Shown: piece by piece, positions 10,511-35,234 of the stretch
Layout of the letters: every line of letters starts with the position of its first letter
Position numbering within the stretch: position 1 is the stretch's first letter
NCBI GenBank assembly: GCA_030605125.1
Contig: JAUWBD010000027.1
Location: 1 to 36,312 of the forward strand
Source of the DNA: Verrucomicrobiota bacterium
GTDB lineage: Bacteria; Verrucomicrobiota; Verrucomicrobiia; Opitutales; Opitutaceae
DNA: 36,312 bases
Reading direction: 5' to 3'
Program-made: the position numbers and the translations under genes
Notes under the pieces: model-generated
What the model saw: the letters and a program-made list of their open reading frames with translations, nothing else
Told to the model about the DNA's origin: nothing
Databases searched by the model: none

Positions 10511-10568
10511 CGTCACCACGGCTATTCAAACGGCGCACGATTGGGAGTATATTCCGCGGCATCCCCTC

Positions 10569-12473: not shown

Positions 12474-12488
12474 AACGAGACCCCGCCG

Positions 12489-16805: not shown

Positions 16806-18821
16806 TCAGTTGGCCAGGGTCACGCGGAGGCGCAGAAAGCGTCGTGGGTTTTCGGATACGGGCGCAGGGGCGGCGACGGTGACCTGCGTGCCGGCGGCGC
16901 CGGGATTGGTGGCGACGAGGGTCCAGGTGTGCAGATCGGTGCTGGCCTCGACTTGGTAAACGAGGTCGGCGCGGGCGCGAAAAAAGCTGAGGCTCAGGGA
17001 AGTGGAATCAGAGAGTGAGGAAACGAGGGAGATCGGAGGGGAGGCGCTCGGGTGGAGGGGATCGGTGGCGAGGGCGTATTCGAGGAGGTTGGGGAGGCCA
17101 TCGCCGTCGGGATCGGCCAGCGCGGGGGAATCGGCGGCGGAGAGGGCGTGCTCGCTTACCCACACGTCGTAGCCGGAAGCGGCGGGGAGCTGCTCGGTGA
17201 CGGTGAGGTAGTTGAGGTAGGCATACTCCTGGGCCTGGCCGGCGGCGTTGCGGGGCTCGACGACGAGCAGGAGCGTGTTGTCCGCATCGGGCCGGGCGTC
17301 GGCGAAGGTGGCGGTCTGGCTCGTGTTGTTGGCGGCCTGGATGTGCACGGGGGCGTAGTCCTCGAGTGAGAAGCGGGTGAAGCGAGAGCCGACGTTGAGG
17401 CGCGAGGCGAAGGCGGTGAGCGTGTAGCGCCCCTGCGGATCGAGGCCGGCGAGGCGCACGGTGGAGCGGGGGTTGGTGCCGCTGCCGATGCGGTAGAGCG
17501 AGTCGCGGCGGGCGCTGGCGGGGAGGCCGGGCGCGTCCTCGTTGACGCCGTTGCCGTTGATGCTGGTGAAGGACGCCTCGACCGCGATCGTGGCGGTGGG
17601 GTGGAGCTGGCCGTCGGCGCGCAGGATGGGCGCGGGGGAGCCGGCGGCGGCGCTGGTGTGGTTGTGCCAGTGGCGGCCGTCGGGCGCCGGGTTTTCCGTG
17701 GCGAACTGCACGTCGCCAAAGTCGATCAACCACTCCCGCGTGGCGGTGCCGGTGGCGAGGGTGAGGGTGGCGACATCGGAGTGGACGACGCCGCCGTCGG
17801 AAAAAGTGAGGCGCGCTTGGTAGCGGCCGGTGCGGGTGTTGTCGGCCTGCGGGACGACGAGCGTGGAGGCGTCGGCGCCGGAGATGAGCGAGCCGTTGTG
17901 GAACCACGCGACGGCGGGCTCGCCGGCGGCCTCCACGGTGAAGCGGGCGGTGTCGCCGGGGAAGACGATGGTCGAGGCGGGCTGGGCGGTGATGCCCGGC
18001 TGGGTGGCGTTGTAGGCGACTTGTTGAAGCGCGGCGGCGCGGGAGGCGGGCAGGCCGAGCTGGGCGGCGGCGCTGCCGGTGCCGGTGGGGAGGGTGCGCG
18101 GGTCGTGGCCGAAGAGCTTGTTGAACAAAACGAGCGCGGAGAGGTAGCTGCCGGAGTTGTTGGCGTGCCAGTGGTCGCCACCCCAGAGCGTGAAGCCGCC
18201 GGGCGGCACGTTCTTCGAATCGTGCGCTACCCCGACATCGAGTGCGCGCATGAAGGCGTCGCCAACCGGCGCCCACTCATCGAGGCCGAAGTCGCGGGCG
18301 GCGGCGGAGTAGGCGGCGCGCAATTCGGACTGCATGGCGTGCAGGGTGGCGTAGGGCGTGGGCGTGAGATCGGGGCGCGCCCAGGTCTCGTAGAGGAAGA
18401 GGCGGACCTCGGGGTTATAGGAGCGGAGGTAGTCGCGGAGGTTTTGCACCGCGGTGCGGAAGGCGGGGATGTTGCCGCTGGGATGGGTGCTCAGGGGGCG
18501 GGTGCTGTGCTCTTGGAGCACGACGTAATCCCAGGAGCGCCCGAAGAGTTGGCGCCGGTCGCGGTAGTGGGCCTCGAGAGACTGGCCGCCGACGGCGACG
18601 ATGAAGACGTTCACGTCGGCGCGGCCCGACTCCTCGCTGAATTTCCGGATCAAGCCCGGGATGCCGCCCATGCCGTTGCCGGTCAGGTCGGTGACCTGGC
18701 CGGCGTTGTAGCCGGTGGGGTTGTAGGTGAAGCTGTTGCCGACAAACAGCACGTCTAGCGCGAGGGCGCGGGACGCGAGGAGCAGGCTCAGCAGGGCGAG
18801 GAGGAGGGTGGGGCGACGCAT
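16806..18821 (-). CDS. Multidomain secreted protein: DUF4886 SGNH hydrolase, Ig-like domain, DFG module and TSP3-like end
   Basis: The product has 671 residues. A signal peptide occupies residues 1-21. Residues 22-245 are a DUF4886 hydrolase: LFVGNSFTYN with Ser30, VAVGGQSLEAH, DYVVLQEHST and GGDHWHANNSG with Asp216/His219. Residues about 276-357 form an Ig-like domain (PASTIVFPGDTARFTVEA... VAWFHNGSLI). Residues about 362-550 are the recurring beta-rich module (WLIDFGDVQF ... ending YLNYLTVTEQ). Near residue 580 a thrombospondin-3/dockerin-like calcium repeat reads DPDGDGLPNLLEYALATDP. A final strand-rich part contains YQVEASTDLHTWTLV. The ATG at 18821 is chosen because it begins the signal peptide; the frame runs 61 codons further up but through the terminator region. 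It leads the three-gene esterase operon. Confidence 0.8.
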   Translation of the reverse strand: MRRPTLLLALLSLLLASRALALDVLFVGNSFTYNPTGYNAGQVTDLTGNGMGGIPGLIRKFSEESGRADVNVFIVAVGGQSLEAHYRDRRQLFGRSWDYVVLQEHSTRPLSTHPSGNIPAFRTAVQNLRDYLRSYNPEVRLFLYETWARPDLTPTPYATLHAMQSELRAAYSAAARDFGLDEWAPVGDAFMRALDVGVAHDSKNVPPGGFTLWGGDHWHANNSGSYLSALVLFNKLFGHDPRTLPTGTGSAAAQLGLPASRAAALQQVAYNATQPGITAQPASTIVFPGDTARFTVEAAGEPAVAWFHNGSLISGADASTLVVPQADNTRTGRYQARLTFSDGGVVHSDVATLTLATGTATREWLIDFGDVQFATENPAPDGRHWHNHTSAAAGSPAPILRADGQLHPTATIAVEASFTSINGNGVNEDAPGLPASARRDSLYRIGSGTNPRSTVRLAGLDPQGRYTLTAFASRLNVGSRFTRFSLEDYAPVHIQAANNTSQTATFADARPDADNTLLLVVEPRNAAGQAQEYAYLNYLTVTEQLPAASGYDVWVSEHALSAADSPALADPDGDGLPNLLEYALATDPLHPSASPPISLVSSLSDSTSLSLSFFRARADLVYQVEASTDLHTWTLVATNPGAAGTQVTVAAPAPVSENPRRFLRLRVTLAN

Positions 18822-18894
18822 GGGGAGAGCGGAGCGGAATGGCGCGGGGTGGGCGCGATGGGGCGGTAGGAGCGGGGCGCGCCCCGCGTGGCAC

Positions 18895-18926
18895 AAAAAA
18901 GGCCGCCGGCGAAACGCGCGGCGGCC
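18895..18926 (-). terminator. Intrinsic terminator after the first PEP-CTERM gene
   Basis: An 8-bp GGCCGCCG/CGGCGGCC stem (18901-18908 with 18919-18926) is followed on the minus strand by six T residues (complement of 18895-18900). It lies 32 bases past the PEP-CTERM stop and 74 bases before the start of the esterase operon, so part of that operon's expression could come from read-through. Confidence 0.8.
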
Positions 18927-18957
18927 GGAAGGAGACGAGGGAGCTGGCTCGGAAGGA

Positions 18958-19695
18958 TCAGCCCTTACGGCGGCGGCGGCGAGTGGCCGCGACGCCGAGC
19001 GCACCGAGGCCGGCGAGCGCGGCGAAGGCGGAGGGCTCGGGAATGGCGGTGATGCTCATGGCGTTGATGTAGTAGAAGCGGCTGGCGTTATCGTTTCCGG
19101 CGCCGGCGCGAACCGTGAGGGTGGCGAAACCGTTGGCGTCGGAGAACACGCTCGTGAGGGAAACGCTCTGGGTGTTGTTGCTGGAGTTCACCGAGACGCT
19201 TCCGGAGCCAAGACCCTCAACCAAAAACTCGGTGGTGCGATTGTCGGAGACGCTGCCGCGCGCGCTGGCGAAGGTGAACGTGTATTCCTGACCTGGCTGC
19301 AGGCCGGAGAAGACGATGGTGCTGAACTGGCCAACGCCTTGCTGGAAGAATGAGTCGCGCCACGCGCTGAAGGGGAACGGATCGCCCTCGGCGCGGGGGT
19401 TGGTGAGGTCGCCGGTGCCGTTGTTGCCGCCGAAGCCCCGGGTGATCTGGTAGCTGATGCCGCTGGCGAGGCCGGTGTTGAAATCGATGAGGGAGACCGG
19501 GCTGGCCATCACCCCGATGTCTTGGGTGACGTTGTTCCAGTTGCCGCCGGTCCACGTGGTGGCGAGGCTGCCGGTGGGGGCGCTGAAGTCGATATAGACG
19601 GCGGTCTGGGCGAGGGCGGTGAGCGGGGCGGCGATGGCGAGCGCGAGCGAGGCCGAGCGAATCGAACGGGAGGTCAGGGAGCTGAGCGTGGTCAT
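18958..19695 (-). CDS. PEP-CTERM exported protein carrying one DFG module
   Basis: This 245-residue protein has a signal peptide at residues 1-29 (SLALAIAAPLTALAQ). Residues about 32-215 form the recurring module: VYIDFSAPTG, NWNNVTQD, VSLIDFNTGLASGISYQIT, the DSFFQQG block, FSGLQPGQEYTFTFASARG and the closing FYYINAMSI. The C-terminus is a PEP-CTERM sorting signal: IPEPSA, a hydrophobic segment AALAGLGALGVAAT and the basic end RRRRRKG. PEP-CTERM tails are recognised by exosortase, which is not encoded in the window. The module looks like a beta-sandwich and could bind glycans or other surface material; no catalytic motif is seen. A 17-bp operator-like element sits 62 bases before the ATG, shared with the divergent repressor gene. 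Confidence 0.85.
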   Translation of the reverse strand: MTTLSSLTSRSIRSASLALAIAAPLTALAQTAVYIDFSAPTGSLATTWTGGNWNNVTQDIGVMASPVSLIDFNTGLASGISYQITRGFGGNNGTGDLTNPRAEGDPFPFSAWRDSFFQQGVGQFSTIVFSGLQPGQEYTFTFASARGSVSDNRTTEFLVEGLGSGSVSVNSSNNTQSVSLTSVFSDANGFATLTVRAGAGNDNASRFYYINAMSITAIPEPSAFAALAGLGALGVAATRRRRRKG

Positions 19696-19773: not shown

Positions 19774-19884
19774 AATTGACGGCCGAGAATGGCAGGCCGC
19801 GAACGACGAGCAGGAAGGGTCTGCGGGGCATCTTTCCCTTGTAAGGGAGCGTCCGGAGCCGATGTTGTGGAGGAAATCGCCGCC

Positions 19885-20991
19885 ATGTCTTCCCCCGCCG
19901 AACGCACGAAACTCGACAAATCCGGCCGCTACCAAGCCGCGAAGAGCCTGCTCCGCCACAAGGTGCTGAGCGGCGAAATCGGGGAGGGGGAGCAACTCCG
20001 CCCCGAGCTGGAGATCTGCCGCGAGACGAACCTTTCCCGCACGACGGTGCGCAAGGCGATCGGGGACCTCGTCGCGGAGGGGCTGCTGGTGCGGTTTCGC
20101 GGGCGTGGCACCTTCGTCAATATTCGCCGTTCGCGCGTGCAGAAAAAGCAGCTCGCGCTCATGGCCTGCCGGCATTCCCACGTCTCCGGCGCGCACGAGC
20201 TGCTGGTGCAGGGCGCGCGGCAGGCCGCGGAGGACCTCGGCTATCAGCTCGCGGTGGTCGATTCGCGCAACGAGGAGGAGGCCGCGTTGCGGCAGGCGAT
20301 GCTGCTCAACGAGCAGAAGGTGGCGGGCACGGTGGTCGTGCCTCCGCAGACCATCTCTTCCGACGCGGTGACGGATCGCGTGGTCCGCGCCCTTGTCCGC
20401 GCGGGCCAGAAGGTGGTGATCGCCGACGATCTCAGCGGCGACGACACCGTGCCGAGCGTGAGCAGCCAGAACGAGGAGAGCATGCGGGAGTTGACGGCTC
20501 ATCTCATCGCGAAGGGGCACCGGCGGATCGCCTTTCTCACGAGCTGGCGGACGGAGGCGGTGCGGGAGCGCGAGAGCGGCTTCCGCCAGGCGATGTCCGA
20601 GGCGGGACTGCCGGTGCGGCCGGAGTATTTTCTGGAGGTCGGAGGGCGCGATCCGGCCCGGCAGGGCACGCAGGAGGTGGACGTGTTCATGGCGATGCGG
20701 GAGCCGCCGGAGGCCATCGTATGCCTGCATGATCTCATCGCCTTCAACGTGCTGCGGCGCTGCGAGGAGCGGGGCTGGCGGGTTCCGCAGGATGTCGCCG
20801 TGACGGGCTTCGACGACCTCCCGGGCGCGTCCACCGCGCATCCGCCGCTCACGACCATGCATCAGCCGCTCAAGGCCATCGGTTCGCGAGCGGTGGAGTT
20901 GCTGGTGCGGCAGCTCGCCGGCGAGCCGATCGGAACCGTGCATGAGCGGCTGCCTTGCCGCCTGGTGGTGCGGAAATCTTGCGGCTCGTGA
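19885..20991 (+). CDS. GntR-LacI hybrid transcriptional regulator (repressor 1)
   Basis: The product has 368 residues. The N-terminal GntR-type winged helix-turn-helix is residues 15-80: VLSGEIGEGEQLRPELEI, then recognition helix ETNLSRTTVRKAIGDL and wing RFRGRGTFV. Residues about 88-365 are a LacI/periplasmic-binding-protein sugar-sensing domain: GARQAAEDLGYQLAVVDSRN, SVSSQNEES, HRRIAFLTS, VAVTGFDDLPGAS and LTTMHQPLKAIG. This is the architecture of AraR and related repressors that leave DNA when a sugar binds. The ATG at 19885 follows a usable GAGGAAA ribosome site and begins shortly before the winged helix; the frame's 32-codon extension upstream is unlikely. The nearly identical repressor 2 lies 4.3 kb away. 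It is divergent from the PEP-CTERM gene and precedes a glycosidase gene. Confidence 0.9.
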   Translation: MSSPAERTKLDKSGRYQAAKSLLRHKVLSGEIGEGEQLRPELEICRETNLSRTTVRKAIGDLVAEGLLVRFRGRGTFVNIRRSRVQKKQLALMACRHSHVSGAHELLVQGARQAAEDLGYQLAVVDSRNEEEAALRQAMLLNEQKVAGTVVVPPQTISSDAVTDRVVRALVRAGQKVVIADDLSGDDTVPSVSSQNEESMRELTAHLIAKGHRRIAFLTSWRTEAVRERESGFRQAMSEAGLPVRPEYFLEVGGRDPARQGTQEVDVFMAMREPPEAIVCLHDLIAFNVLRRCEERGWRVPQDVAVTGFDDLPGASTAHPPLTTMHQPLKAIGSRAVELLVRQLAGEPIGTVHERLPCRLVVRKSCGS

Positions 20992-21144: not shown

Positions 21145-23118
21145 ATGATTTGTCTCCGCCCGTTCCTGGCGACGCTGTGCGTCGCGTTTTCCTCACTGGT
21201 CGCCGCGCCCGGCCCCATCGAACCGCTCGCGATCAGAGGCGCCGACTACTTCACGCAGGCGGGCGAGCCGGTGCGTTTTTGGGGCGTCAACATCGTCGCG
21301 GGCTACTACGACAAGGCGAAGGCGGACGCGATTGCCGCCAACCTGGCCGCGCTCGGTGTCAACCTTGTGCGGCCCCACCATAATCTGCGCCCGAGCCGCG
21401 ATTGGAATCCGGGCATGGTCAGCGGCTCGCTGCTCACCTACGAAAACGACTCCCGCGAGTGGGACCCGGAGGCGCTGGATCGTTTCGACTACCTCAACGC
21501 CGCGCTGCGTAGGCGCGGCATCTACCTTGCGTTCTCCCTGCACGGCACCCGGGCCTACCGCGCGGGCGACGTGGATATCTTGAAGACCGACGACGCCGAC
21601 CGCCGCGGCTGGATGGAGGCGATCAAGGAGATCCACGGCTGGGACTGGCGTCGCGGCTTCGACGTCCGGAAGCTCTTGCCGGTGGTGGACGAGCGCGCCG
21701 CGCTCCTGAACGTGGAGTTCACCCGCAAGCTGCTCGAGCATCGCAACCCCTACACCGGCCTCACCTACGCCGAGGATCCGCAGGTGATCAGCATCGAGTT
21801 GGTCAACGAGCACTCGCTGGAATACGCGGTGATCTGCAACAACCGCATGCCCGCCCACCTGCAGAAGGCGTTCGAGGCGCGCTGGGCCCACTACGCGCGC
21901 GCCGCGGGCATCGAGCCGGGCGACCTCTACGCGCCGACCAACGACGAGCAGCGGATGCTGCGCTCGCGTTTCCTGAACGGGCTCGACGAGACCTTCTTCG
22001 AGCGGATGAAGGCCGCGGCGCGCGCCGCCGGCAGCCGCGCGCCGATGACGCTCTCCAACCTCTGGCGAGGCGACGCCTTCGCGGAGATGAACCAGCGCAC
22101 GGCCGATTTCATCGAGAACCACGCCTACATCGACCCGCTGGTGGTGCGGGGCATCGACGACGGCTTCCGCTCCGCCAATCGCATGGCGCTCGTGGACAAG
22201 CCGTATTTCCTCGGCGAGTTCAACCAGGCCGAGGGGGCGGCCAACATCGCCCGGCACGCGCCGCACCGCACCATGCTGCCGGTGGCCGGAGCGGCCTACG
22301 GCCTGCACGCGGGATGGAGCGGGATCGTATGGTTCGCCTGGATACACGGCGACGGCGCGATCGGCGACGATGGCTGGGCGCTCGACGAGGGCCGGAAGGC
22401 CCGCCTCGGCGACATGGTCTTCGACGGCATGATGCTCGATCACATCCGGACCACGGGGATGATTTTCCGTCGCGGGCTGGTGGCGCCGAGCTCGAAGCCG
22501 GTGGTGCTCTGGGCGGAGGGGCCTTTCGGCGCGGCGAATTACCAGGACCTGATGCGCGGAGCGGTGGATCATCGCGCCGGCTGGCAAAGCGTGCATGCGT
22601 TTCGTCGCGCCTACGGCCCGGTGCCCGAGGACCAAGGCTACGCGCCTTGGATGCGCGAGCCGGCGAAGTCGCCGTTGGTGTCGGACACGGGCGAGATCGT
22701 GCGCGACGTGGAGCGTCGTCAGCTCACGGTGGCGACCGGGCAGGCGGAGGCTTTCAGCGGTTTCCCGGACGCGGACGCGCCGGCGAAGCTGCGCCACCTC
22801 GAACTGCGGGCGAAGCCCGGGGTGTTTGCGACCGTCGTGGCGGTGAGCGAGGACGGGCAGGCCTTGTCGCAGACGCGACGCGTGGTCATCAGCCGGAGCG
22901 CGGTCGCGGAAGATGGCGGCGAGGTGGCGGATGAACTGGCGCTTCGTCTCGCCGGCATGCGGTCCTCCGCGGACGGCGGAGAGGGGTGGAGCTTTGTCGT
23001 CACTCGTCCGCGCGCCGCGGCCGGCAAACGCCTGCCGGTGCAGGTGGACGCCCACGGCGCGGTGCGCCTGCCTCTTGCCGGTTGGCATGAGGGTGAACTC
23101 GTGCTCGGCGGAAAGTAG
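21145..23118 (+). CDS. Secreted glycoside hydrolase of the GH5/clan GH-A type
   Basis: This 657-residue protein has a signal peptide at residues 1-20 (MICLRPFLATLCVAFSSLVA). The catalytic part starts like many GH5-type enzymes: PVRFWGVNIVAGYYD, then LAALGVNLVRPHHN. A probable acid/base Glu222 lies in ISIELVNEHSLEY (the Asn-Glu pair of clan GH-A) and a probable nucleophile Glu358 in YFLGEFNQAEG; a third typical segment is WSGIVWFAWIHGDGA. Residues about 440-657 form a beta-rich accessory region (SPLVSDTGEIVRDVERRQLTVATGQAEAFSG). The whole protein aligns end to end with the C-terminal half of the 1276-residue protein at 30453. Specificity cannot be read from sequence; mannan or another beta-linked glycan is plausible given the GH38 enzyme nearby. 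No family number is assigned with confidence. Confidence 0.72.
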   Translation: MICLRPFLATLCVAFSSLVAAPGPIEPLAIRGADYFTQAGEPVRFWGVNIVAGYYDKAKADAIAANLAALGVNLVRPHHNLRPSRDWNPGMVSGSLLTYENDSREWDPEALDRFDYLNAALRRRGIYLAFSLHGTRAYRAGDVDILKTDDADRRGWMEAIKEIHGWDWRRGFDVRKLLPVVDERAALLNVEFTRKLLEHRNPYTGLTYAEDPQVISIELVNEHSLEYAVICNNRMPAHLQKAFEARWAHYARAAGIEPGDLYAPTNDEQRMLRSRFLNGLDETFFERMKAAARAAGSRAPMTLSNLWRGDAFAEMNQRTADFIENHAYIDPLVVRGIDDGFRSANRMALVDKPYFLGEFNQAEGAANIARHAPHRTMLPVAGAAYGLHAGWSGIVWFAWIHGDGAIGDDGWALDEGRKARLGDMVFDGMMLDHIRTTGMIFRRGLVAPSSKPVVLWAEGPFGAANYQDLMRGAVDHRAGWQSVHAFRRAYGPVPEDQGYAPWMREPAKSPLVSDTGEIVRDVERRQLTVATGQAEAFSGFPDADAPAKLRHLELRAKPGVFATVVAVSEDGQALSQTRRVVISRSAVAEDGGEVADELALRLAGMRSSADGGEGWSFVVTRPRAAAGKRLPVQVDAHGAVRLPLAGWHEGELVLGGK

Positions 23119-25110: not shown

Positions 25111-25175
25111 TGGGGCGGGGTGCGATGGCGGACTGGGGAAAGGAAAAGCCGACTCCATGCGGGCGACGCGGCAAA

Positions 25176-25338: not shown

Positions 25339-26478
25339 ATGATCTCCGACGCCAGTTTCAAGAGCCTCGATGAAACGAGCCGCTATCAGGCGGCCCGTCA
25401 GTTGCTCCGCATGAAGGTGCTGAGCGGCGAGCTCGGGCACGGGGACCAGTTGCAGCCGGAGCTGGATCTCTGCCGCGACACGAACCTGTCGCGCACCACG
25501 GTGCGCAAGGCGATAGCCGATCTCGTGGCCGAGGGGCTTCTGGTGCGCTATCGTGGTCGTGGCACTTTCGTGAGTATCCGCCGCTCCAGCGTGCAAAAGA
25601 AGCAGCTCGCGCTCGTGGTGTGCCGCCACGCGCATGTGGCCGGCGCGCACGATCTGTTGGTGCGTGGGGCGCGGCAGGCGGCGGACCGGCTGGGCTACCA
25701 GCTCATCGTGGCGGACTCCCGAAACGAGGAGGACGCGGCCCTGCGCCACGCGATCAACCTGAACGAGCGCAAGGTGGCCGGGACCATCGTGGTGCCGCCG
25801 CAGACGGAGTCTCCGCACTCGACGATCGAGCGGGTGCTCCGCGCGCTCACGCGCGCCGGCCAGCGCATCGTGGTGGCCGACGACCTCAGCATGGACGACA
25901 AGGTGCCGAGCGTGAGCAGCCAGAACGAGGAGAGCATGCTCACGATCACGCGTCACCTCGTGGCGCGCGGGCACCGGCGGATCGCCTTTCTCACGAGCGG
26001 TCGCACCGAGGCTGTGCGGGAGCGTGAGAACGGCTTTCGCCGCGCGATGCAGGAGGCCGGGCTGGCGGTGCCGCCGGAGTGTTTTCTCGAGGTGGGCAGC
26101 CGTGACCCGGCGCGGCAGGGGTTGCAGGAGGTGGATGTCTTCATGGCGATGCGCGAGCCGCCCCAGGCGGTGGTCTGCCTGCATGATCTGATCGCGCTGA
26201 ACTTCATGCGCCGCGCGGAGGAGCGGGGGTGGCGGGTGCCGCACGACGTGGCGGTGACCGGCTTCGACGACCTTCCCGAGGCCTCGCGGGCCCACCCGCC
26301 GCTTACGACCATGCACCAGCCGCTCAAGTCGATCGGCGCCCGCGCCGTGGAATTGCTCGTTCGCCAGCTGCGCGGGGAGCCGCTCGAGACCCCGCATGAA
26401 CGTCTCCCTTGCCGACTGATGGTTCGGCGCTCCTGCGGCGCGGAGCCTTCGCCTCTCCTTTCCCTGTCACACCCATGA
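25339..26478 (+). CDS. GntR-LacI hybrid transcriptional regulator (repressor 2)
   Basis: This 379-residue paralogue of repressor 1 (gene at 19885) has the same two-domain layout. The winged helix-turn-helix is almost unchanged: DTNLSRTTVRKAIADL and RYRGRGTFVSIRR against ETNLSRTTVRKAIGDL and RFRGRGTFVNIRR. The sensor domain (residues about 88-365) is also very similar, with VPSVSSQNEESM, HRRIAFLTSGRTEAVRERE and VAVTGFDDLPEAS. Differences cluster in stretches such as PPQTESPHSTIERV and in the last residues, AEPSPLLSLSHP. Two regulators with one recognition helix but slightly different pockets could integrate two related sugars at common operators. The stop overlaps the start of the next gene as ATGA (26475-26478), so the secreted CBM-like protein is translationally coupled to it. 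An operator-like site lies just upstream. Confidence 0.9.
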   Translation: MISDASFKSLDETSRYQAARQLLRMKVLSGELGHGDQLQPELDLCRDTNLSRTTVRKAIADLVAEGLLVRYRGRGTFVSIRRSSVQKKQLALVVCRHAHVAGAHDLLVRGARQAADRLGYQLIVADSRNEEDAALRHAINLNERKVAGTIVVPPQTESPHSTIERVLRALTRAGQRIVVADDLSMDDKVPSVSSQNEESMLTITRHLVARGHRRIAFLTSGRTEAVRERENGFRRAMQEAGLAVPPECFLEVGSRDPARQGLQEVDVFMAMREPPQAVVCLHDLIALNFMRRAEERGWRVPHDVAVTGFDDLPEASRAHPPLTTMHQPLKSIGARAVELLVRQLRGEPLETPHERLPCRLMVRRSCGAEPSPLLSLSHP

Positions 26479-27053
26479 AACCCACCAGACTCCACCTCAT
26501 CGTCCTCGCTCTCGTCGGCCTCTTCGGAGGCGCGTTCTCCTTCGCCCAGCCGGCGCCGGCCGGCCCTTCCGGAAACATCGCGATGCTCGACCGCCGGGTG
26601 CCGGAACCGGAAAAGCCCTGGCTGCACCAGCTCTGGCAGGCGGACATCGATCTCGATCCCGCTCAGCGCTACGTGCTGTCGTTTTGGGTGAAGTCCTCGG
26701 CGCCGACGCGCCTGAGCGTGTCCACCAAGCACAGCGTCTCGCCGTGGGACTACTTCGGCGTGCGGGAAAACATCGCCATCACGCCCGAGTGGAAGTGGGT
26801 CGAGCTGCCCTTTCGCGCCACGCGCGCCATCCCGAAACACTCGCGCCTGAGTTTCGCCTTCGGCAACGGCGACGCGGTGAAGATCATGGTCGCCAACGTG
26901 GTGCTCCACCAGGAGGGCTCCGACAAGTCGAAGAACCTGCTCTACGACGCGCGCTTCGAAACCGGCCTCGGCGAGTGGAAGGTCTCCAATCGCAAGCCCG
27001 GCGTCTTCGACGTGGTGATCGTGCCCTGGCCGTGGGACCTGCCCACGGAGTGA
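26475..27053 (+). CDS. Small secreted carbohydrate-binding-module-like protein
   Basis: This 192-residue protein has a signal peptide at residues 1-24 (LHLIVLALVGLFGGAFSFAQ). The mature part is a single galactose-binding-like beta-sandwich resembling CBM4/CBM9-type modules: WLHQLWQADIDLDPAQRYVLSFWVKSS, then ITPEWKWVELPFRA, LSFAFGNGDAVKIMVANVVL and the trailing NLLYDARFETGLGEWKV. No catalytic domain is attached, so it may bind sugars at the cell surface or in the periplasm, or assist an enzyme in trans. Its ATG overlaps the stop of repressor 2, giving strict co-expression of a sensor and a binding protein. A strong terminator closes the unit. The CBM family assignment is by pattern only. Confidence 0.68.
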   Translation: MKPTRLHLIVLALVGLFGGAFSFAQPAPAGPSGNIAMLDRRVPEPEKPWLHQLWQADIDLDPAQRYVLSFWVKSSAPTRLSVSTKHSVSPWDYFGVRENIAITPEWKWVELPFRATRAIPKHSRLSFAFGNGDAVKIMVANVVLHQEGSDKSKNLLYDARFETGLGEWKVSNRKPGVFDVVIVPWPWDLPTE

Positions 27054-27279: not shown

Positions 27280-30200
27280 ATGCTCTCCTCCCCGCTCACC
27301 CTAGCCAAACTGCGCCGCGTCGAAGCGGCGTATCGAGATCTCATTCACCGACCGTTGGCGGTGCTGCCCGTCGAGGCTTTCGAGACGGACGCGCATCTGG
27401 CGGGCCTGCCCTGCCAGGAGCATCCGTGGGCGGCCCGTGAGCTTGGCTGGCGTTGGGGACGCTCGGGCGGCAGCGCGTGGTTTCGCGCCCGGTGGGTGGC
27501 GGAGCGGGATCACGCCGAGCCGCTGTATGTGATGGCGGATACGGGCGGCTGCGAGGCGCTGTGCTTCGTGAACGGCAAGGCCTGCGGCATCTTCAACCAC
27601 GCCGACTACAAGTGGCAGCGCGGCGATCATCGGGCGCTGCTGCTCGCGCCCGCGGCGCACAAAGGCGAGGTGTTCACCATCCTGGTCGAGGCTTACGCCG
27701 GCCACGAGATCGTCGGCGTGCACCCGAGCGACACGCCGGAGACGCAGGACGCCTACCGGCCGCCTTTCGTGCGCACGTTTCGCGGCATCTCCGTGGCTCG
27801 ACGCGACGAGGAAGTGAAGGACCTCGTGGTGGACCTGCACACGGCGCGGACCTTGGCCGAGGCCTTGTGTGACCGCAGCTTTCGTCGCGGCAGACTGCTG
27901 GCGGTTTTCGACCAGGTGTATGCCGCGCTGTGGGAGGAGCCGCGCGAGGTGGCGGAGGACGTGTGGCGCGAGGGCGTGCGGCGCGCCTCGGCGCTTCTGC
28001 GGGTCGAGTTGGCGAAGCGCAACGGCGACGACGCCCCGCGCGCCGGCCTGATCGGGCACTCGCACATGGATACCGCCTGGCTCTGGACGGTGGACGAGGC
28101 GAAGCGCAAGTGCGCGCGCACCTACTCCAACGCCCTGCGCCTGATGGACCAGTATCCCGAGTATCTCTTCGTGCAGAGCTCGGCCATCCACGCCGAGTTC
28201 ATGCGCGAGCGTTACCCGGACATTTTCGAGGGCATCCGGCGCCGCGTGGCCGAGGGCCGCTGGGAGCCCAATGGCGGGGCTTGGGTGGAGCCCGACGTGA
28301 ACCTCGCCGGCGGCGAGGCCTTGATCCGCCAGTTCCTCGTCGGGCGCCGGTTCACCCGGAAGCATTTCAACTACACCGGCGACACCTTCTGGCTGCCGGA
28401 CACCTTCGGCTACTCGGCCGCGCTGCCGCAGATCCTCGCGGGCTGCGGTATCCGTTATTTCCTTACGACCAAGCTCACCTGGAACGAGACCAACAGCTTT
28501 CCCTACGACACCTTCTGGTGGGAGGGCATCGACGGGACTCGGGTCTTCACCCACTTCAACGACATCCACTGCGCGCCGGATCCCGGCACGCTGATCAACA
28601 AGCTCGCCGGCACCGGCCCGAAGGATTTTCGCAAGACGGAGAACCACGTGCGCCACCCCGACGTTAACCAATCCCGGCTGATCTCCTTCGGTCGCGGCGA
28701 CGGCGGCGGCGGGCCGGATTTCGAGATGCTGGAGATGGCGCGTCGCGTCGGCGATCTCGAGGGCTGCCCGCGCGGCACCTACATGACGGTGTCGGCCTTC
28801 ATGGCGCAGTTGGAGGCCGAGGCGCGGCGCGCGCCGCTTTACGCCGGAGAACTCTACGTCGAGGGCCACCGCGGCACCCTGACCGGTCAGGCGGCGATCA
28901 AGCGCCTGAATCGCCGCGCGGAGTTCGCCCTGCGCACGCTCGACTACGTCGCGGCGCGGGCGCGGCTGGCGGGCCTCGAGGCGGACGCGACACGGATCGA
29001 CGCGCTCTGGCGCCTGCTGTTGTTGAACCACTTTCACGACATCCTTCCCGGCACCTCGATCCCCGAGGTGCACGATCGCGCGATTGGCGAACTTGACCAA
29101 CTGGTCGCCGACGCCCGCGCTTACGCGTTGGAACTGCTCGCGGCGCTGTCCACCGGCGGCGGTTCGGATAATCGTATCAGTATTCACAATACGCTTGGTT
29201 GGACGCGCGACGCCGGCTGGATCGACGCCGCGCTGCCCGCGCCCGCCGGTGTGGCCTCGCAGGAGATCGAAACGCCCTGGGGCGAGCGTCGCCGCGCGCT
29301 CGCCGGGCTGGCCCTGCCGCCGCTCGGCGCGACCACCTTTACTGCCGGCGAGCCCGCCTCCGGCGAATCGCCGTTTGCCTACGAGGGCGACATGCTGCGC
29401 ACGCCGCACGCGGTGCTGCGCTTCGACGAGGCCGGCCGTATTGTCTCGTGGCTTGACCTGGCCTCGGGCCGCGAATTGCGCGACGCGCGCGGCGGTCCGC
29501 TCAACAGCCTCGTTTTCGGCGAGGACATCCCCGCGCAGTGGGACAACTGGGACATCGACCCCGACCTCGAGCTGAAGCTCGCGCCGCTCACCTCGCCCGC
29601 CGGGTTCAGCGTTGTGGCCGACGGGCCGTTGCAGCTCCGCCTGCGCCGCGTGCTCAAGCTCGGCCGCCGCTCCGTGCTCACGCAGGACATCGTGGTCCAT
29701 GCGCACACCGCGCGCGTTGATTTCGAGACCGTCGTCGATTGGGAAGAACCGCACCGCTACCTCGGTGTCGAGTTCCCGCTCGCCGTGCACACGCCGGCGG
29801 CGCGACACGAGATTCAGTTCGGCCACCTGCAACGCGGCACCCACCGCAACTTCGCCGAGGACCGCGCGCGCTTCGAGGTCAGCCAACACAAGTGGACCGA
29901 TCTCTCCGAGGCGGACTTTGGCGTGTCGCTGCTCAACGACTCCAAATACGGCCTCTCCGTGCTCGGCAGCCGCGTGCGGCTCTCGTTGCTCAAGGGCGGC
30001 GGCCACCCCGATCCGCGCGGCGACAAGGGCGTGCACACCTTCACCTACGCGCTGCTCCCGCACGCCGGCGGGTTCTGTGTGGAGTCCGTGGTGCGTCCCG
30101 CCTACGAGCTCAACACCCCGCTGCTCGCTCACCGCGGCGGCACGCGCGCCTCGGCTTCGCTGATCGAGGAACCCGCGCCGGGCATCGTCGTCGAAACGGT

Positions 30201-30387
30201 CAAACCGGCCGAGTCCGGCGAGGGCGTGATCGTGCGTCTTTACGACGCCGCCGGCTCGGCCTCGCGCATGGCGATCACTCCGGTGGCCCCGCTGACGCTC
30301 GCGGGCGACTGCAACCTGCTCGAGGACCCGTGCGAGGCGAAGGAATGGCACCGGCCCTTCGCGCTGCGCACTGTTCGCCTCGCCTGA
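27280..30387 (+). CDS. Alpha-mannosidase, glycoside hydrolase family 38
   Basis: This 1035-residue enzyme has no signal peptide, so it probably acts in the cytosol on imported oligosaccharides. An N-terminal beta domain precedes the catalytic barrel. The barrel has the zinc motif GHSHMDTAWLW (His262 and Asp264 fit the HxD ligands), the nucleophile in TFWLPDTFGYS (Asp374, also a zinc ligand) and the final His ligand region NHFHDILPGTS (His584/His586). The helical and beta-rich C-terminal domains follow (for example SIHNTLGWTRDAGW and PLAVHTPAARHEIQFGHL). GH38 enzymes release alpha-linked mannose from N-glycan or mannan fragments. The length fits the family. It leads an operon with the 1276-residue glycosidase gene 65 bases downstream and is preceded by the best operator palindrome. 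Confidence 0.93.
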   Translation: MLSSPLTLAKLRRVEAAYRDLIHRPLAVLPVEAFETDAHLAGLPCQEHPWAARELGWRWGRSGGSAWFRARWVAERDHAEPLYVMADTGGCEALCFVNGKACGIFNHADYKWQRGDHRALLLAPAAHKGEVFTILVEAYAGHEIVGVHPSDTPETQDAYRPPFVRTFRGISVARRDEEVKDLVVDLHTARTLAEALCDRSFRRGRLLAVFDQVYAALWEEPREVAEDVWREGVRRASALLRVELAKRNGDDAPRAGLIGHSHMDTAWLWTVDEAKRKCARTYSNALRLMDQYPEYLFVQSSAIHAEFMRERYPDIFEGIRRRVAEGRWEPNGGAWVEPDVNLAGGEALIRQFLVGRRFTRKHFNYTGDTFWLPDTFGYSAALPQILAGCGIRYFLTTKLTWNETNSFPYDTFWWEGIDGTRVFTHFNDIHCAPDPGTLINKLAGTGPKDFRKTENHVRHPDVNQSRLISFGRGDGGGGPDFEMLEMARRVGDLEGCPRGTYMTVSAFMAQLEAEARRAPLYAGELYVEGHRGTLTGQAAIKRLNRRAEFALRTLDYVAARARLAGLEADATRIDALWRLLLLNHFHDILPGTSIPEVHDRAIGELDQLVADARAYALELLAALSTGGGSDNRISIHNTLGWTRDAGWIDAALPAPAGVASQEIETPWGERRRALAGLALPPLGATTFTAGEPASGESPFAYEGDMLRTPHAVLRFDEAGRIVSWLDLASGRELRDARGGPLNSLVFGEDIPAQWDNWDIDPDLELKLAPLTSPAGFSVVADGPLQLRLRRVLKLGRRSVLTQDIVVHAHTARVDFETVVDWEEPHRYLGVEFPLAVHTPAARHEIQFGHLQRGTHRNFAEDRARFEVSQHKWTDLSEADFGVSLLNDSKYGLSVLGSRVRLSLLKGGGHPDPRGDKGVHTFTYALLPHAGGFCVESVVRPAYELNTPLLAHRGGTRASASLIEEPAPGIVVETVKPAESGEGVIVRLYDAAGSASRMAITPVAPLTLAGDCNLLEDPCEAKEWHRPFALRTVRLA

Positions 30388-30452: not shown

Positions 30453-33400
30453 ATGATTGATTCCCTGCGACCCCTGGTCGCGAGGGCACTGCCGTGCCCA
30501 TTCGCGACGACCTCCGGCATCCGCCGCTACGCGACTGCCGCCGCCCTGTGGCTGTCATTGACCCCCGCGCTGCCCGCGGCCGAGACCGTGTTCATCGACT
30601 TCGGCGGCGGCGGCTCCGCGCAGACCGCCACGGCCGGCTGGAACAACCTCACCGCCGTCAACCCCGGCTCGGCCATCGCGCTGACCGACTACCAGACGCA
30701 GTCCGCCAGCGGCCTGTCGCTGGAGTTCACCACCAACTTCTTCGCGACCAACGGCGGCGGCGTCACCTCGGCCATCGGCGAGTTTCCGTCCACCGCCGCG
30801 CAGGACTCGTTCTATCACTCCGGCTCGGCGACGCCGACGCTGGTGCTCTCCGGATTCGATCCGACGCGCACCTACGACTTCGATTTCATGGCCTCGCGCG
30901 ACGGAGTGGGGGATGCGCGCGTCGCCCGCTACACGCTCACCGGCGCGGCCACGCAATGGACCACGCTCGACGCGTCGAACAACGCCTCGCAGGTCGCCTC
31001 GCTGACCGGCCTCACGCCGGCGGCCAACGGCACGTTCACGCTCGTCGTCGCGGCCGATCCGACCAACACCAACTCCAGCCAGTATTTCTACCTCGGCGGC
31101 CTCAAGATCACCGGCCACGACGCCACCCTTCCGGCGGGCATCCTCTACTATCAGGGCTTTGACTACGGCGACACCGCCGGCGACCTCACGGCCGTGTCCG
31201 GCTCCGACTGGACGCTCACCGGGACCGCCGTGCCGTTGTATTCGCCGCGTGGATTCATCCACCCGGCGGTCGGCGGCACCGGCGGCTCGCTCTACACCAG
31301 CGACGCCTACGGCGGTGGCGGCACACGCCGGGTCGAGCAGTCGCTCAACGTCGACCTCACCAGTCTCACCGAGGTCTGGGTCAGCACGCTGATCGCCATG
31401 GTCAACCGCCCGCAGGCTTCGGCCTCCGCGGACGTGACGATCTCCATTTTGCAGAACGATTGGCAGGCCGCGATCAACCACACCGTGGGCAAGGTCTGGA
31501 ACGACACCACCGGCATCCGCTACGGCTCCACCTACCTCACCGGCGCCGAGTTCACCGCCGACATTGAGCGCCCGCTGCACATCGTCTATCGCGTCGCCGA
31601 GGGCTCGGCGACCGAGTTCTGGGTCAACCCGACCGGCACGCCGACGCCCGGCACCGGGCAGTCGATCGGCAACGTCGTCAACAACCTCACCACGCTCACC
31701 CGCTGCCGCATCAACCAGGCCTCGATGGGACTGCACGTCGACGAGATCGTCGTCGCCGAAAACTACGCCGCCATCGCCGCGCTCCTCGCCAAGCCCGCCG
31801 CGCCGTCGGGCTCGCTGCTGGTCGACTTCGGTTCCGGCACCTATCCGACGACAACCTCCGGCTGGAACAACATCACCGGCTCCGGCGACACGACCACCGT
31901 GCACGATCTCGTGGACAGCGGCGACGGCCTCGACAGCGGGGTCAACCTCCGCCTGCTCGCACCCTTCACCGGCGCCAACACCAGCGGCGTCAACACCGCC
32001 ATCGGCGCCTTCTCCGCCGACGCCGTGCGCGATTCGTTCTATTCGTCGGGCACGGCCACGCCGTCGTTCGAGCTCACCGGCCTCGACCCCTTGATCAGCT
32101 ACGCCTTCACCTTTACCGCCTCGCGCGACGGCGTGGGCGACGCCCGCGTGACCCGTTACCAGGTCGCCGGCGCCACCACCGCGGCCACCTCGCTGGATAC
32201 GTCCAACAACGGCTCCGCCACCGCGACGGTTCCCTCGGTCGCGCCCGACGCCACAGGCCGCGTGGTCATCACCGTGTCGAAGGACGCGGCCAATACCAAC
32301 GGCTCCGGTTACTTCTACCTCGGCGCGCTCCGGGTCGAGCCGGCCTCGATCACCACGCTCGTTCCGCTGACCATCTCGGGCGACCAATACCGCGACCCCG
32401 ATGGTCAGCCCGTGCGCCTGTGGGGCGTCAACGCGGTCGCCTTCTTCCCCAACCGCGAGATGGCCGACGGCTACGCCGATAAACTCGCCGCGATGGGCGT
32501 CAACTGCGTGCGCTGGCATCACCTCCAGCGCCCCAGCCTCGACTGGAACAGCAAGTCGCGCATCACCGCGCTGTCCACCTACGCGACCGACAGCCGCACG
32601 CCCGACGCGCTCGCCTGGGACCGCTTCGACTACCTCAACGCCCGCCTGCGCGCCAAGGGCATCTACATCATGCTCAGCGCCGAGTTCAGCCGACAGTATC
32701 ACCCCGGCGACGTCGCGATTATGCCGGTCAACTCCACCGACGACGCCGCGTGGTCCGCCGCCATGACCTCGCTCAACTCTTCCGCGCCCTACGGTCCAGT
32801 CGAGCCCTGGCGGTTCGCCATCGACAAGCGCAAGATGCTGCACGTCTTCGACGAACGCGTCGCCCGCCTCAGCGAGGAGTTCACGACCGAGCTGCTCGAC
32901 CACGTGAACCCCTACACCGGCCTGAGCTACGGCGACGACCCGCAGGTGATCGCGCTGGAGTTGCTCAACGAGTTCTCCTCCGAATACGTCATCGCCTCCG
33001 GCAACCGCTACGAGAAGACCATCGGCGGCGTCAACGAACTCGGCTACTGGAACGACGAGCTTCTTCAACAGTGGTCCGACTACGCCACGGCCCACTCGGT
33101 GACGCCCGGCGATTTCTATGCGCCATCGACCACCGCGCAGCGTCAGGCCCGCTCCGACTTCCTCGACGGACTCGACCGCGCCTATGCCCAGCGTATGAAG
33201 ACTCTGGTGACAAACCTCGGCTACTCCAAACCGGTCGTGTTCTCCAACCTTTGGCGCGGCGAGCGTCCATTAAAGACCAACGCCGACGAGAACACCCACA
33301 TCGAGGACCACACCTACAGCGATCCCTTCATCGTCGACGGTCCCGACGACTGGGTGCGTCGCGTCGGCCGCTCGGTGATCGCCGGCAAGCCGTTCTTCAT

Positions 33401-34283
33401 CGGCGAGATCAACCAACGCGAGGGCTCCGAGCACTGGTCGACCGACGATCCCCGCCGCACGATGTTGCCGGCCACGATCGCCACCTACGCCGCGCATCAT
33501 GGCTGGTCCGGCTTTGCGTGGTTCGCCATGAATCATGGCGACGACAACGTCGACTTCACCGGCCGCGGCGCGACGCTCTCGCGCGATCGCAGCCTCGGCA
33601 GCCTGATCAACGACCAGATGCAGCTCGACCACATGGCGACCGCCTCGCGCATCTTCCGCCGCGGGCTCTTCGCGCGGTCGACCGCGGAGAAGACCGTCTG
33701 GATCGACGACCCGATCTGGCAATGGACCTACAACGGCTTGGTCGCGCAGAAGTATAACTTCGCCGCCGGCTGGCAGGGCGTGAACGAGTTCCGCAAGGCC
33801 TTTGGCGCGAAGCCGCCCGGCCAGGACACCGCGACCTACATGGTCGGTTCGCCAACGGGCAATCCGCTCGTCTCCGACACCGGCGAGATCCGCAAGGACA
33901 CCGTGCGCAAGCAGCTCACCGGCGCCGCCCCGCAGGCCGAGGTGTTCAGCGGCAACCTCGACGTCTCCGCGCCGGCGGGCCTGTCGCACCTGCAGATCAA
34001 CGCGACCTCCGGCTTCGCCACCGTGCTGCTCGTGACTGACGACGCGGCGGACCTAGACGACAGCCGTCATGTGCTCGTGAGTCGCACGCACATCACGACC
34101 GGCGGCGCCGATGTGGCGGGACCGGGGCTGACGCTCAACGGTCTGCGCGCCCCGACGGGTGGCGAGGTCTGGCGCTTCACCGCGGACGGCGCGACGCAGA
34201 CGCTCACGATGACCGGCGGCGCGCTCGCGCTGCCGACGACCGGCAGCTGGCGTCAGGCCGAGCTGCGACTGGTGACGCCGTGA
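30453..34283 (+). CDS. 1276-residue secreted multidomain glycoside hydrolase with two DFG modules and a LamG-like domain
   Basis: A signal peptide (about 1-43) ends near ALPAAE. Residues 45-220 are module A (FIDFGGGGSAQ, AGWNNLTAV, QDSFYHSG, FYLGGLKITG). Residues 230-440 are a concanavalin/LamG-like domain (ILYYQGFDYGDTAGDL, WVSTLIAMVNR, MGLHVDEIVVAE). Residues 452-630 are module B (LLVDFGSGTY, SGWNNITGSG, RDSFYSSG, FYLGALRVEP). Residues 637-1276 are a clan GH-A-like hydrolase paralogous to the 21145 gene, with probable acid/base Glu840 (IALELLNEFSSEY) and nucleophile Glu985 (FFIGEINQREG). The frame is open far upstream into the GH38 gene; the ATG at 30453 is chosen because the signal peptide follows it and no other start does so. 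It is co-transcribed with the mannosidase. The binding modules suggest attachment to an insoluble or surface glycan; the exact substrate is unknown. Confidence 0.78.
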   Translation: MIDSLRPLVARALPCPFATTSGIRRYATAAALWLSLTPALPAAETVFIDFGGGGSAQTATAGWNNLTAVNPGSAIALTDYQTQSASGLSLEFTTNFFATNGGGVTSAIGEFPSTAAQDSFYHSGSATPTLVLSGFDPTRTYDFDFMASRDGVGDARVARYTLTGAATQWTTLDASNNASQVASLTGLTPAANGTFTLVVAADPTNTNSSQYFYLGGLKITGHDATLPAGILYYQGFDYGDTAGDLTAVSGSDWTLTGTAVPLYSPRGFIHPAVGGTGGSLYTSDAYGGGGTRRVEQSLNVDLTSLTEVWVSTLIAMVNRPQASASADVTISILQNDWQAAINHTVGKVWNDTTGIRYGSTYLTGAEFTADIERPLHIVYRVAEGSATEFWVNPTGTPTPGTGQSIGNVVNNLTTLTRCRINQASMGLHVDEIVVAENYAAIAALLAKPAAPSGSLLVDFGSGTYPTTTSGWNNITGSGDTTTVHDLVDSGDGLDSGVNLRLLAPFTGANTSGVNTAIGAFSADAVRDSFYSSGTATPSFELTGLDPLISYAFTFTASRDGVGDARVTRYQVAGATTAATSLDTSNNGSATATVPSVAPDATGRVVITVSKDAANTNGSGYFYLGALRVEPASITTLVPLTISGDQYRDPDGQPVRLWGVNAVAFFPNREMADGYADKLAAMGVNCVRWHHLQRPSLDWNSKSRITALSTYATDSRTPDALAWDRFDYLNARLRAKGIYIMLSAEFSRQYHPGDVAIMPVNSTDDAAWSAAMTSLNSSAPYGPVEPWRFAIDKRKMLHVFDERVARLSEEFTTELLDHVNPYTGLSYGDDPQVIALELLNEFSSEYVIASGNRYEKTIGGVNELGYWNDELLQQWSDYATAHSVTPGDFYAPSTTAQRQARSDFLDGLDRAYAQRMKTLVTNLGYSKPVVFSNLWRGERPLKTNADENTHIEDHTYSDPFIVDGPDDWVRRVGRSVIAGKPFFIGEINQREGSEHWSTDDPRRTMLPATIATYAAHHGWSGFAWFAMNHGDDNVDFTGRGATLSRDRSLGSLINDQMQLDHMATASRIFRRGLFARSTAEKTVWIDDPIWQWTYNGLVAQKYNFAAGWQGVNEFRKAFGAKPPGQDTATYMVGSPTGNPLVSDTGEIRKDTVRKQLTGAAPQAEVFSGNLDVSAPAGLSHLQINATSGFATVLLVTDDAADLDDSRHVLVSRTHITTGGADVAGPGLTLNGLRAPTGGEVWRFTADGATQTLTMTGGALALPTTGSWRQAELRLVTP

Positions 34284-34505: not shown

Positions 34506-35234
34506 TCAGCGCTTGCGGCGCAGGACGCACATGCCGAGGGCACCGAGGCCGAGCAGCGCGGCGGCGGCACTGGGCTCGGGGACCGCCACGGCCTCAATCT
34601 TGAGGGCGTTTAGGTGATAGTAGCCGTTGCTGTTGGTATTTGCCAAGGCCTTGGAGACATCCAACACAAACGTTCCGCTCACGCTCGGGCTTACCGACAA
34701 GATCGATACGGTAGTCAAATTGTTGCCGGCTGCATCTTGGGTAACTTGATTCGTTGCACTGCCGGTTAGAGAAAACAACGTGGAGCGATTATTACTTGAG
34801 CCGGCTGCACTGTTGCTGGAGGCAAGAAAAGTGAAGGTGTATTGTTTCGAGGGATCGAAGCCTGTGAACGTAATCTGAGCGTTGCGGTCAGGTGCGTTTC
34901 CATCGCTGCCATAGAAGTAGTCGCGCACTGCTGTTGCGGAGAAATCTTCCGTTGCTGCATTTGGCGCGCTGGAGCCTGTCGCTTGGAATGCGTCTGTGAT
35001 TTGATAGCTCAATCCACTGGCGAGGTTGGTGTCATAATCCAATAGTGAGGCTGAACTGCCCATTGCACTGACCGAAGTGACGTTATTCCAGCTCTTGCCT
35101 GATTCAGTGGTGGTGTTGCCGGAGGTTCCGAAGTCCATGAAAATGACCTGAGCCGACGCGGCCAGCGGGGAGAGCGCCGCGAAGGCAAGGAGCGGACGCA
35201 GGGCCCGGACGATTGGGGAGGATGAGGTGCGCAT
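34506..35234 (-). CDS. PEP-CTERM exported protein carrying one DFG module (second)
   Basis: This 242-residue protein has a signal peptide at residues 1-28 (LLAFAALSPLAASAQ). The module spans residues about 30-212: IFMDFGTSGNTTT, SWNNVTSV, SASLLDYDTNLASGLSYQIT, RDYFYGSDGN, FTGFDPSKQYTFTFLAS and the closing YYHLNALKIEA. The C-terminus is a PEP-CTERM signal: VPEPSA, a hydrophobic helix AALLGLGALGMCVL and the basic RRKR. It is a clear paralogue of the protein at 18958, with the same domain order. The middle of the gene (about 34640-35100) is less GC-rich than everything around it, which could mean recent acquisition or relaxed codon choice. It lies 21 bases after the upstream secreted-protein gene, so both are transcribed together, under the operator at 35784. 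Confidence 0.85.
   Translation of the reverse strand: MRTSSSPIVRALRPLLAFAALSPLAASAQVIFMDFGTSGNTTTESGKSWNNVTSVSAMGSSASLLDYDTNLASGLSYQITDAFQATGSSAPNAATEDFSATAVRDYFYGSDGNAPDRNAQITFTGFDPSKQYTFTFLASSNSAAGSSNNRSTLFSLTGSATNQVTQDAAGNNLTTVSILSVSPSVSGTFVLDVSKALANTNSNGYYHLNALKIEAVAVPEPSAAAALLGLGALGMCVLRRKR

Follow-up and report, generated by a model that had tools for sequence, protein, structure and literature searches.

A bare and an extended GH148-like glycosidase, derived from an old duplication, in a gene cluster of an Opitutaceae bacterium

A contig of 36,312 nucleotides from a Verrucomicrobiota bacterium of the Opitutaceae (JAUWBD010000027.1, GenBank assembly GCA_030605125.1; this whole stretch is hereafter called the window) carries two related genes for putative glycosidases, one with additional N-terminal domains (P0001) and one without them (P0002). 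The locus raises the question of what kind of enzymes these are, how the pair arose and what it may act upon. We read P0002 and P0001, with a probability of about 0.7, as an anciently duplicated pair of retaining, probably secreted glycosidases whose uncharacterised clade lies within clan GH-A (GH, glycoside hydrolase) and is related to GH148-type enzymes. This reading has its computed basis in the predicted fold, the invariance of two glutamates, the homology, the age of the duplication and a recurrent neighbourhood; the catalytic roles and a double displacement on a beta-linked glycan are what we infer.

The two enzymes and their predicted fold

The two genes and their predicted catalytic residues are as follows.

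21145..23118, plus strand: P0002, the bare GH148-like glycosidase, 657 aa, with a signal-peptide-like start (judged by eye), a predicted GH-A barrel at about residues 25-445 and C-terminal beta domains at residues 446-657
21808..21810, plus strand: Glu222 of P0002, predicted acid/base, at the end of strand beta-4 (LVNE)
22216..22218, plus strand: Glu358 of P0002, predicted nucleophile, in strand 354-361 (GEFN)
30453..34283, plus strand: P0001, the extended GH148-like glycosidase, 1276 aa
32358..34280, plus strand: predicted catalytic GH-A barrel and C-terminal beta domains of P0001
32970..32972, plus strand: Glu840 of P0001, predicted acid/base
33405..33407, plus strand: Glu985 of P0001, predicted nucleophile

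Both frames are open, with a gene-like GC content by codon position. In a BLASTP comparison, residues 636-1273 of P0001 aligned with residues 25-654 of P0002 at 43% identity over 648 residues (458 bits), with an E-value of 8e-151 for this single comparison, far past chance. The first-pass annotation of this DNA had called the two proteins paralogous glycosidases, and the motifs that it quoted are indeed present. Ahead of the barrel, P0002 has only the signal-peptide-like start (by eye), and P0001 alone of the pair carries two DFG modules separated by a middle domain. A search of the genome itself gave 10 match stretches in 8 genes, 3 of them full length; the third full-length copy (L003, 41% identity) lies on another contig, and more distant paralogues exist besides. 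Neither P0001 nor P0002 matched any Pfam or NCBIfam model at cut-off, in agreement with the earlier failure to assign them to a defined family. Our literature search turned up no paper on this glycosidase branch, which is no proof of absence.

Relatives were found by a contig scan with an alignment (A1, from which the partial sequence L023 was omitted). This revealed 32 related loci in Verrucomicrobiota, Kiritimatiellota, Lentisphaerota, Planctomycetota and two Anaerolineae, among them the cultured species Victivallis vadensis, Cerasicoccus arenae and C. frondis; a scan with a single sequence gave no relative among 40 pattern matches. In a sample of the phylum, scored with no more than four candidates from each genome so that match counts are lower bounds, at least 91 of 288 genomes had some match and at least 14 had a relative at E below 1e-120.

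The structure of P0002 was predicted from alignment A3, comprising P0002 and 33 further rows (P0001 and 32 proteins from the related loci; the partial L068 was omitted), with a predicted local distance difference test score (pLDDT) of 92.7 and a predicted template modelling score (pTM) of 0.92. In this model E222 lies just past strand 214-220 and E358 within strand 354-361. Eight residues (R76, H79, N221, E222, H326, Y328, E358 and W396 in P0002 numbering) are invariant in all 34 rows, and we take these positions to be the conserved GH5 set. The catalytic pairs proposed at first pass, Glu222/Glu358 and Glu840/Glu985, were found at exactly these numbers. A predicted barrel with one Glu after beta-4, preceded by Asn, and another on beta-7 places the proteins in clan GH-A, for which a retaining double displacement is expected.

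The top Foldseek match of the P0002 model was the GH5 mannanase 6tn6 (E 8.4e-13), and the top 50 also held other GH5 mannanases and mannosidases together with GH35 and GH42 enzymes. Structure alignments (VIA) paired the model with 8gf3 (Z 21.5, 315 residues, root-mean-square deviation (rmsd) 3.1), 5e9a of GH42 (Z 19.0, 430 residues), 6t7g of GH164 (Z 18.9, 408 residues) and 7bob, Op5Man5 (Z 17.0, 350 residues). On account of these matches, the barrel can be described as GH5-like and the rear part as GH42/GH164-like. The best-matching barrels are those of GH5 endo-mannanases (8gf3, 1rh9, 3pz9) and of the Cellvibrio mixtus exo-mannosidase (1uuq/7odj), but P0002 is only 13-20% identical to mannan-active chains in the structure alignments, and both P0001 and P0002 have large additional C-terminal beta domains. 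With GH42, GH164 (Bs164) and Op5Man5, the barrel and a further domain align over 350-430 residues (Z 17-19), yet at only 8-16% identity. GH42 and GH164 enzymes consist of a barrel and a trimerisation domain and form homotrimers; P0002 aligned over 388-430 residues. The GH5-like resemblance seen at first pass is thus upheld by the best structural match, and the confident model of P0002 shows a clan GH-A barrel nearest to GH5-type mannanases.

Such matches would also be expected if P0001 and P0002 formed a GH5 subfamily of mannanases or exo-beta-mannosidases. Besides the nearest solved folds, this is favoured by the PDB profile searches, in which all matches under E 0.01 were GH5 mannanases (best E 1e-5 with the clade and 2e-8 with a wider alignment), by Pfam Cellulase (PF00150), which at E up to 0.1 matched 10 of 20 sequences in the wider alignment (best E 1e-5), and by the adjoining GH38 gene. 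P0001 and P0002 themselves gave no PF00150 match at E up to 1, and this, the low identity to mannan-active GH5 chains and the GH42/GH164-like rear part make a GH5 subfamily unlikely. Phmmer searches of the PDB returned three GH5 mannanases with P0001 (E 0.001 to 0.23) and nothing at E up to 1 with P0002 alone. Pfam GH42 matched neither protein. No entry named GH148 was among the structure and PDB profile matches listed, an absence that proves nothing.

Kinship with GH148 and the age of the duplication

As set out in those passages of PMC5725463 that describe its architecture, the GH148 founder EngU has E239 in the motif INNEN, a CBM4 module (CBM, carbohydrate-binding module) inserted at 293-430 and E581 in the motif VTEYN, giving a spacing of 342, and every GH148 protein known in 2017 had an insert at that barrel site. 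The insert is outside the formal definition of GH148. Like the barrels predicted for P0001 and P0002, that of EngU belongs to clan GH-A and has an acid/base Glu after beta-4 and a nucleophile Glu on beta-7. P0001 and P0002 differ from it in having no insert between the barrel halves and in their motifs, which read LVNEHS/LLNEFS and GEFN/GEIN (P0002/P0001) at the places of INNEN and VTEYN. That the clade as a whole lacks the GH148 insert follows from an alignment (A2) and from its Glu-Glu spacing, which is only 135-145 in 32 of the 34 rows and 173 in the other 2.

The same genome encodes a distant paralogue, L006, in which INNEN (Glu321 of the open frame) is followed by a CBM4_9 domain (E 8.8e-10, above cut-off) and then by ITEYN (Glu656), with a Glu-Glu spacing of 335. 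Since its motifs, CBM4_9 insert and spacing resemble those of EngU, L006 is, judged by sequence, very probably a GH148 enzyme. The clade profile matched L006 (E 1.2e-31), L008 (1.5e-36) and, in another genome, L029 (4.7e-58; Z=1e6 throughout). In the reverse direction, a profile from the genome's two EngU-like genes, small in that it held three overlapping readings of them, matched P0002 (1.6e-23) and P0001 (2.7e-20). P0001 and P0002 are therefore homologous by profile to a paralogue of EngU architecture in their own genome.

Two GH148-type genes, L006 and L008, lie about 2 kb apart on one contig (G000:C147), and the CBM4_9 barrel insert is found in one of them only. L008 has EngU-like motifs, no CBM4_9 match and a Glu-Glu spacing of 163, so the insert varies.

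Given this clear homology, P0001 and P0002 could be true GH148 enzymes, i.e. endo-beta-1,3/1,4-glucanases like EngU that have no barrel insert, the more so as GH148 genes are abundant in such bacteria (17 in Opitutaceae strain TAV5, by the count in the relevant passage of PMC8233224). The short spacing, set against 342 in EngU, speaks against this, and the GH148 paper found no insert-free member (PMC5725463). In the first of two trees, whose six outgroup rows were hand-picked from the distant paralogues, a branch with a Shimodaira-Hasegawa approximate likelihood ratio test (SH-aLRT) support of 99 parts the clade from these rows. The GH38 and PL22-like partners (PL, polysaccharide lyase) described below would not suggest a plain glucan. 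We consider membership doubtful, and file the clade as GH148-like, with membership unproven on the sequence comparisons. The earlier view that the enzymes may be an uncharacterised branch holds in so far as they stand outside the curated family models, but predicted structure puts them in clan GH-A, and sequence puts them beside GH148-type enzymes.

The two genes stem from an old duplication, a finding that is new here. In a tree of 39 rows (L068 was omitted from both trees), P0001 grouped with three extended enzymes, those of L044, L057 and L059 (support 100/100), and P0002 fell into a 14-row clade (98/98) together with the bare copy from each of these loci. Bare and extended copies thus occur together in 3 of the 32 related loci, each extended copy being equipped with CBM96; the bare/extended pair described at first pass is real, but it is no one-off.

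A recent tandem duplication giving rise to P0001 and P0002 was considered and rejected: forcing them into a sister pair costs 200.7 log-likelihood units (approximately unbiased (AU) test, p 1.2e-5). Loci L040 and L041 have a different second copy, cut by the contig end, which groups with L003.

N-terminal modules of the extended enzyme

The part of P0001 ahead of the barrel comprises three domains, and further DFG modules occur in neighbouring genes.

30585..31124, plus strand: DFG module 1, residues about 45-224, putative malectin/CBM-like beta sandwich (fold taken from the sister module)
31137..31802, plus strand: middle domain, residues about 229-450, LamG-like by eye
31812..32348, plus strand: DFG module 2, residues about 454-632
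34506..35234, minus strand: PEP-CTERM protein consisting of one DFG module
18958..19695, minus strand: PEP-CTERM protein consisting of one DFG module
16806..19004, minus strand: DUF4886 (SGNH-like) protein that also has an Ig-like domain and, at about 17184-17750, a single DFG module

The two DFG modules of P0001 share 44-45% identity. The profile that matched them (i-Evalues 2e-78 and 8e-77) was made from these very modules, so that the matches are by construction. In all, 13 DFG matches were found in the genome, 5 of them within the window (two in P0001, one in each of the two PEP-CTERM proteins and one in the DUF4886 protein), and 21 of 96 genomes of the phylum had a match. No Pfam family covered the DFG module in the window proteins scanned.

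The fold of DFG module 2, predicted from a six-row alignment, was good (block pLDDT 68-96 from model residue 221 on). It aligned with YxiM (2o14; Z 13.2, 136 residues, rmsd 2.5), with the malectin-like domains found in receptor kinases of plants (Z about 12) and with human malectin (9ikp; Z 10.2, 145 residues, rmsd 3.2), CBM61 (2xon; Z 9.1, 131 residues, rmsd 3.2) and CBM36 (Z 9.1). CBM61 was also the best Foldseek match (E 8.7e-5), and Fbs1 was among the fold matches. A search of the PDB with the DFG profile gave only fibronectin-type and other chance-like matches (best E 0.024). The predicted fold of the DFG module is malectin/CBM-like, which is likewise new here. Because sandwich domains of Cry toxins and binary toxins match it about as well as the CBMs do, the fold alone is no proof of sugar binding.

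The middle domain matched no Pfam family, and its model, computed from its own sequence beside DFG module 2, is of low confidence (pLDDT under 50 over nearly all of it). Homologues occur as stand-alone proteins at L059:18437-19366 and L052:5777-6748 (phmmer E 6e-31 and 2e-25), both with PEP-CTERM matches below cut-off, and two alignments placed relatives of this domain onto DFG columns. The first-pass statement that P0001 alone has two DFG modules is correct; its LamG-like label for the middle domain is a reading by eye.

The N-terminal parts of the extended orthologues in L044, L057 and L059, which come from Cerasicoccus and a relative of it, are CBM96 (whole-protein E 5e-18, 5e-15 and 4e-12), which fills the place taken in P0001 by DFG modules and the middle domain. 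One catalytic lineage thus bears unrelated modules. That the modules of P0001 might be common to its orthologues was entertained and dropped, as the three orthologues carry CBM96. The founding member of CBM96 binds alginate (PMC9971899).

Whole PEP-CTERM proteins on both flanks of the locus consist of DFG, and together with the abundance of the module in the genome and window this could mean that DFG serves purely surface or structural ends (adhesion, attachment or a PEP-CTERM-type extracellular matrix) and is no CBM. We hold this to be the less probable reading: many of the fold matches are sugar-binding or malectin-like (CBM61, malectin, Fbs1, CBM36), even if the toxin domains do about equally well, and a CBM family occupies the same place on the orthologous enzymes. 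DFG looks like a candidate sugar-binding family, to go by its modelled fold, common to a secreted enzyme and PEP-CTERM proteins.

Gene neighbourhood and proposed function

Within the window, the order of genes is PEP-CTERM/DFG (minus strand), regulator, P0002, P0008 (minus strand), prepilin-like gene (minus strand), second regulator, CBM4_9 protein, GH38, P0001 and PEP-CTERM/DFG (minus strand). Pfam was run on hand-picked neighbours (28 open reading frames (ORFs) of the window and 10 neighbour ORFs, of 367 ORFs in the loci).

19789..20991, plus strand: GntR-type regulator with a LacI-type sugar-binding domain (Pfam), upstream of P0002
23204..24355, minus strand: P0008, PL22-like (oligogalacturonate-lyase-like), no signal peptide by eye
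25339..26478, plus strand: second GntR-LacI regulator (Pfam), upstream of the GH38 and P0001 genes
26409..27053, plus strand: P0009, small CBM4_9 protein whose match to Pfam CBM_4_9 (E 7.7e-08) exceeds the cut-off; by eye it has a signal-peptide-like start, and an internal ATG is the probable start of the gene
27280..30387, plus strand: GH38 alpha-mannosidase (Pfam Glyco_hydro_38N, E 2.4e-79), no signal peptide by eye

The two regulators share 77% identity. The family profile of P0008 matched the oligogalacturonate lyases 3pe7 (E 1.8e-18) and 3c5m (2.4e-16), PL22 enzymes with which its HEWW (HE-W), later SH and HPHP positions align. All three family members scanned fell below the cut-off of PF14583 (Pectate_lyase22). 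The PL22-like family that adjoins the glycosidases in several phyla is possibly an uncharacterised lyase family, going by its sequence. In P0008 and 11 related loci (A4), a motif HxH(P/A)HP lies near the C-terminus, its three His being invariant in the 12 rows.

The cluster recurs in parts in distant relatives. Relatives of the regulator at >50% identity were found in 9 of the 32 loci, of GH38 in 8 (at only 25-29% identity in three of them) and of the CBM4_9 protein in 4. A PL22-like gene is present in 11 of the 32, in 9 of which no more than about 1.2 kb separates it from a gene for a member of this enzyme family; in L043 and L049 the distance is about 6 and 4 kb. L044 is the sole locus in which regulator, bare and extended copies, PL22-like gene and GH38 occur together; within the stretch covered, L057 is without GH38 and L059 without a PL22-like gene.

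Several other neighbours were recorded. A protein beside the glycosidase at L046:2771-4966, with mates in L043, L051, L052 and L059 (5 of the 32 loci), is a DUF5054 protein whose HLDIGF motif is GH38-like by eye. Prepilin-like proteins with an N-methylation motif are encoded at 24424-25158 of the window and by 21 ORFs in related loci, and the Victivallis neighbour L061:7419-8567 is a DUF1559 protein. At 10224-13880 of the window, a glucosamine-6-phosphate deaminase-like protein is fused to a PIG-L domain (PRK02122-type); the ORF directly after it is sugar-kinase-like by eye, with no Pfam match at E 0.001.

A complex polysaccharide is the probable target of the cluster. To judge by eye, P0001, P0002 and P0009 begin with leader-like sequences, which suggests export of the glycosidases and the CBM4 protein; GH38 and P0008 show no such start and would act inside. 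In the proposed scheme, P0001 would be held on its polysaccharide by the N-terminal DFG, middle and DFG modules, and the module-free P0002 would act on soluble or periplasmic oligosaccharides. In a double displacement on a beta-linked glycan, the acid/base would be E222/E840 and the nucleophile E358/E985. After import of the products, the PL22-like enzyme and the GH38 alpha-mannosidase, both cytoplasmic, would complete the breakdown, with control exerted by the two near-duplicate GntR-LacI regulators. Because of the GH38 and PL22-like partners, a heteroglycan with mannose and uronic acid fits best as the substrate, although this is a guess, and a doubtful one. Xanthan-type and glucuronomannan-type substrates were considered from the same partners, and neither is favoured by the evidence.

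Several points weigh against the reading of P0001 and P0002 as secreted GH148-related glycosidases working with these partners. The signal peptides were judged by eye, and both glycosidase activity and sugar binding by DFG are predictions from models. The structural neighbours are mannan-active, but a common fold shows no substrate. The homology to GH148 rests on EngU-like paralogues of the same genome. P0008 scored 15.8 bits against the PF14583 cut-off of 30, and the position of what is presumably the Gln metal ligand of PL22 is Tyr in P0008. GH38 was not seen in 24 of the 32 loci, nor a PL22-like gene in 21, some contigs being short. In favour of the partnership, PL22-like genes (E 1e-50 or better) occurred among the sampled genomes in 8 of 14 with the enzyme versus 11 of 274 without it (Fisher p 1.7e-7), and the presence of GH38 in 8 of 32 loci has p 9e-6, given a chance of 3.4% per locus set from the 8 copies of the window's own genome; both values ignore kinship between genomes and the general clustering of carbohydrate-active enzyme genes, the thresholds were set after the lists had been seen, and the two genome collections share genomes. 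Of the 8 genomes with both, 6 have the enzyme and PL22-like genes no more than about 1.1 kb from each other, G186 has them well separated on a single contig, and G212 has them on two contigs. A GH38 match was present in 55 of 115 sampled genomes.

We are aware of no published enzyme set with this composition, and our literature search brought up none. Tentatively, the clade may represent a separate GH family that has no GH148 insert and comprises an old pair, one enzyme soluble and the other anchored to its substrate by modules that were exchanged as a whole (DFG here, CBM96 in Cerasicoccus). Together with a divergent PL22-type lyase and GH38, it would form a Verrucomicrobiota-Planctomycetota route for a mannose/uronic acid glycan. 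Verrucomicrobiota, Planctomycetota and Lentisphaerota, the first of them represented here by a little-studied bacterium, carry glycosidases that no family model names. With members in cultured species, an assigned catalytic pair and recurrent partners, the activity of this clade is directly testable, and the unrelated modules on one orthologous catalytic lineage offer a natural experiment on module function.

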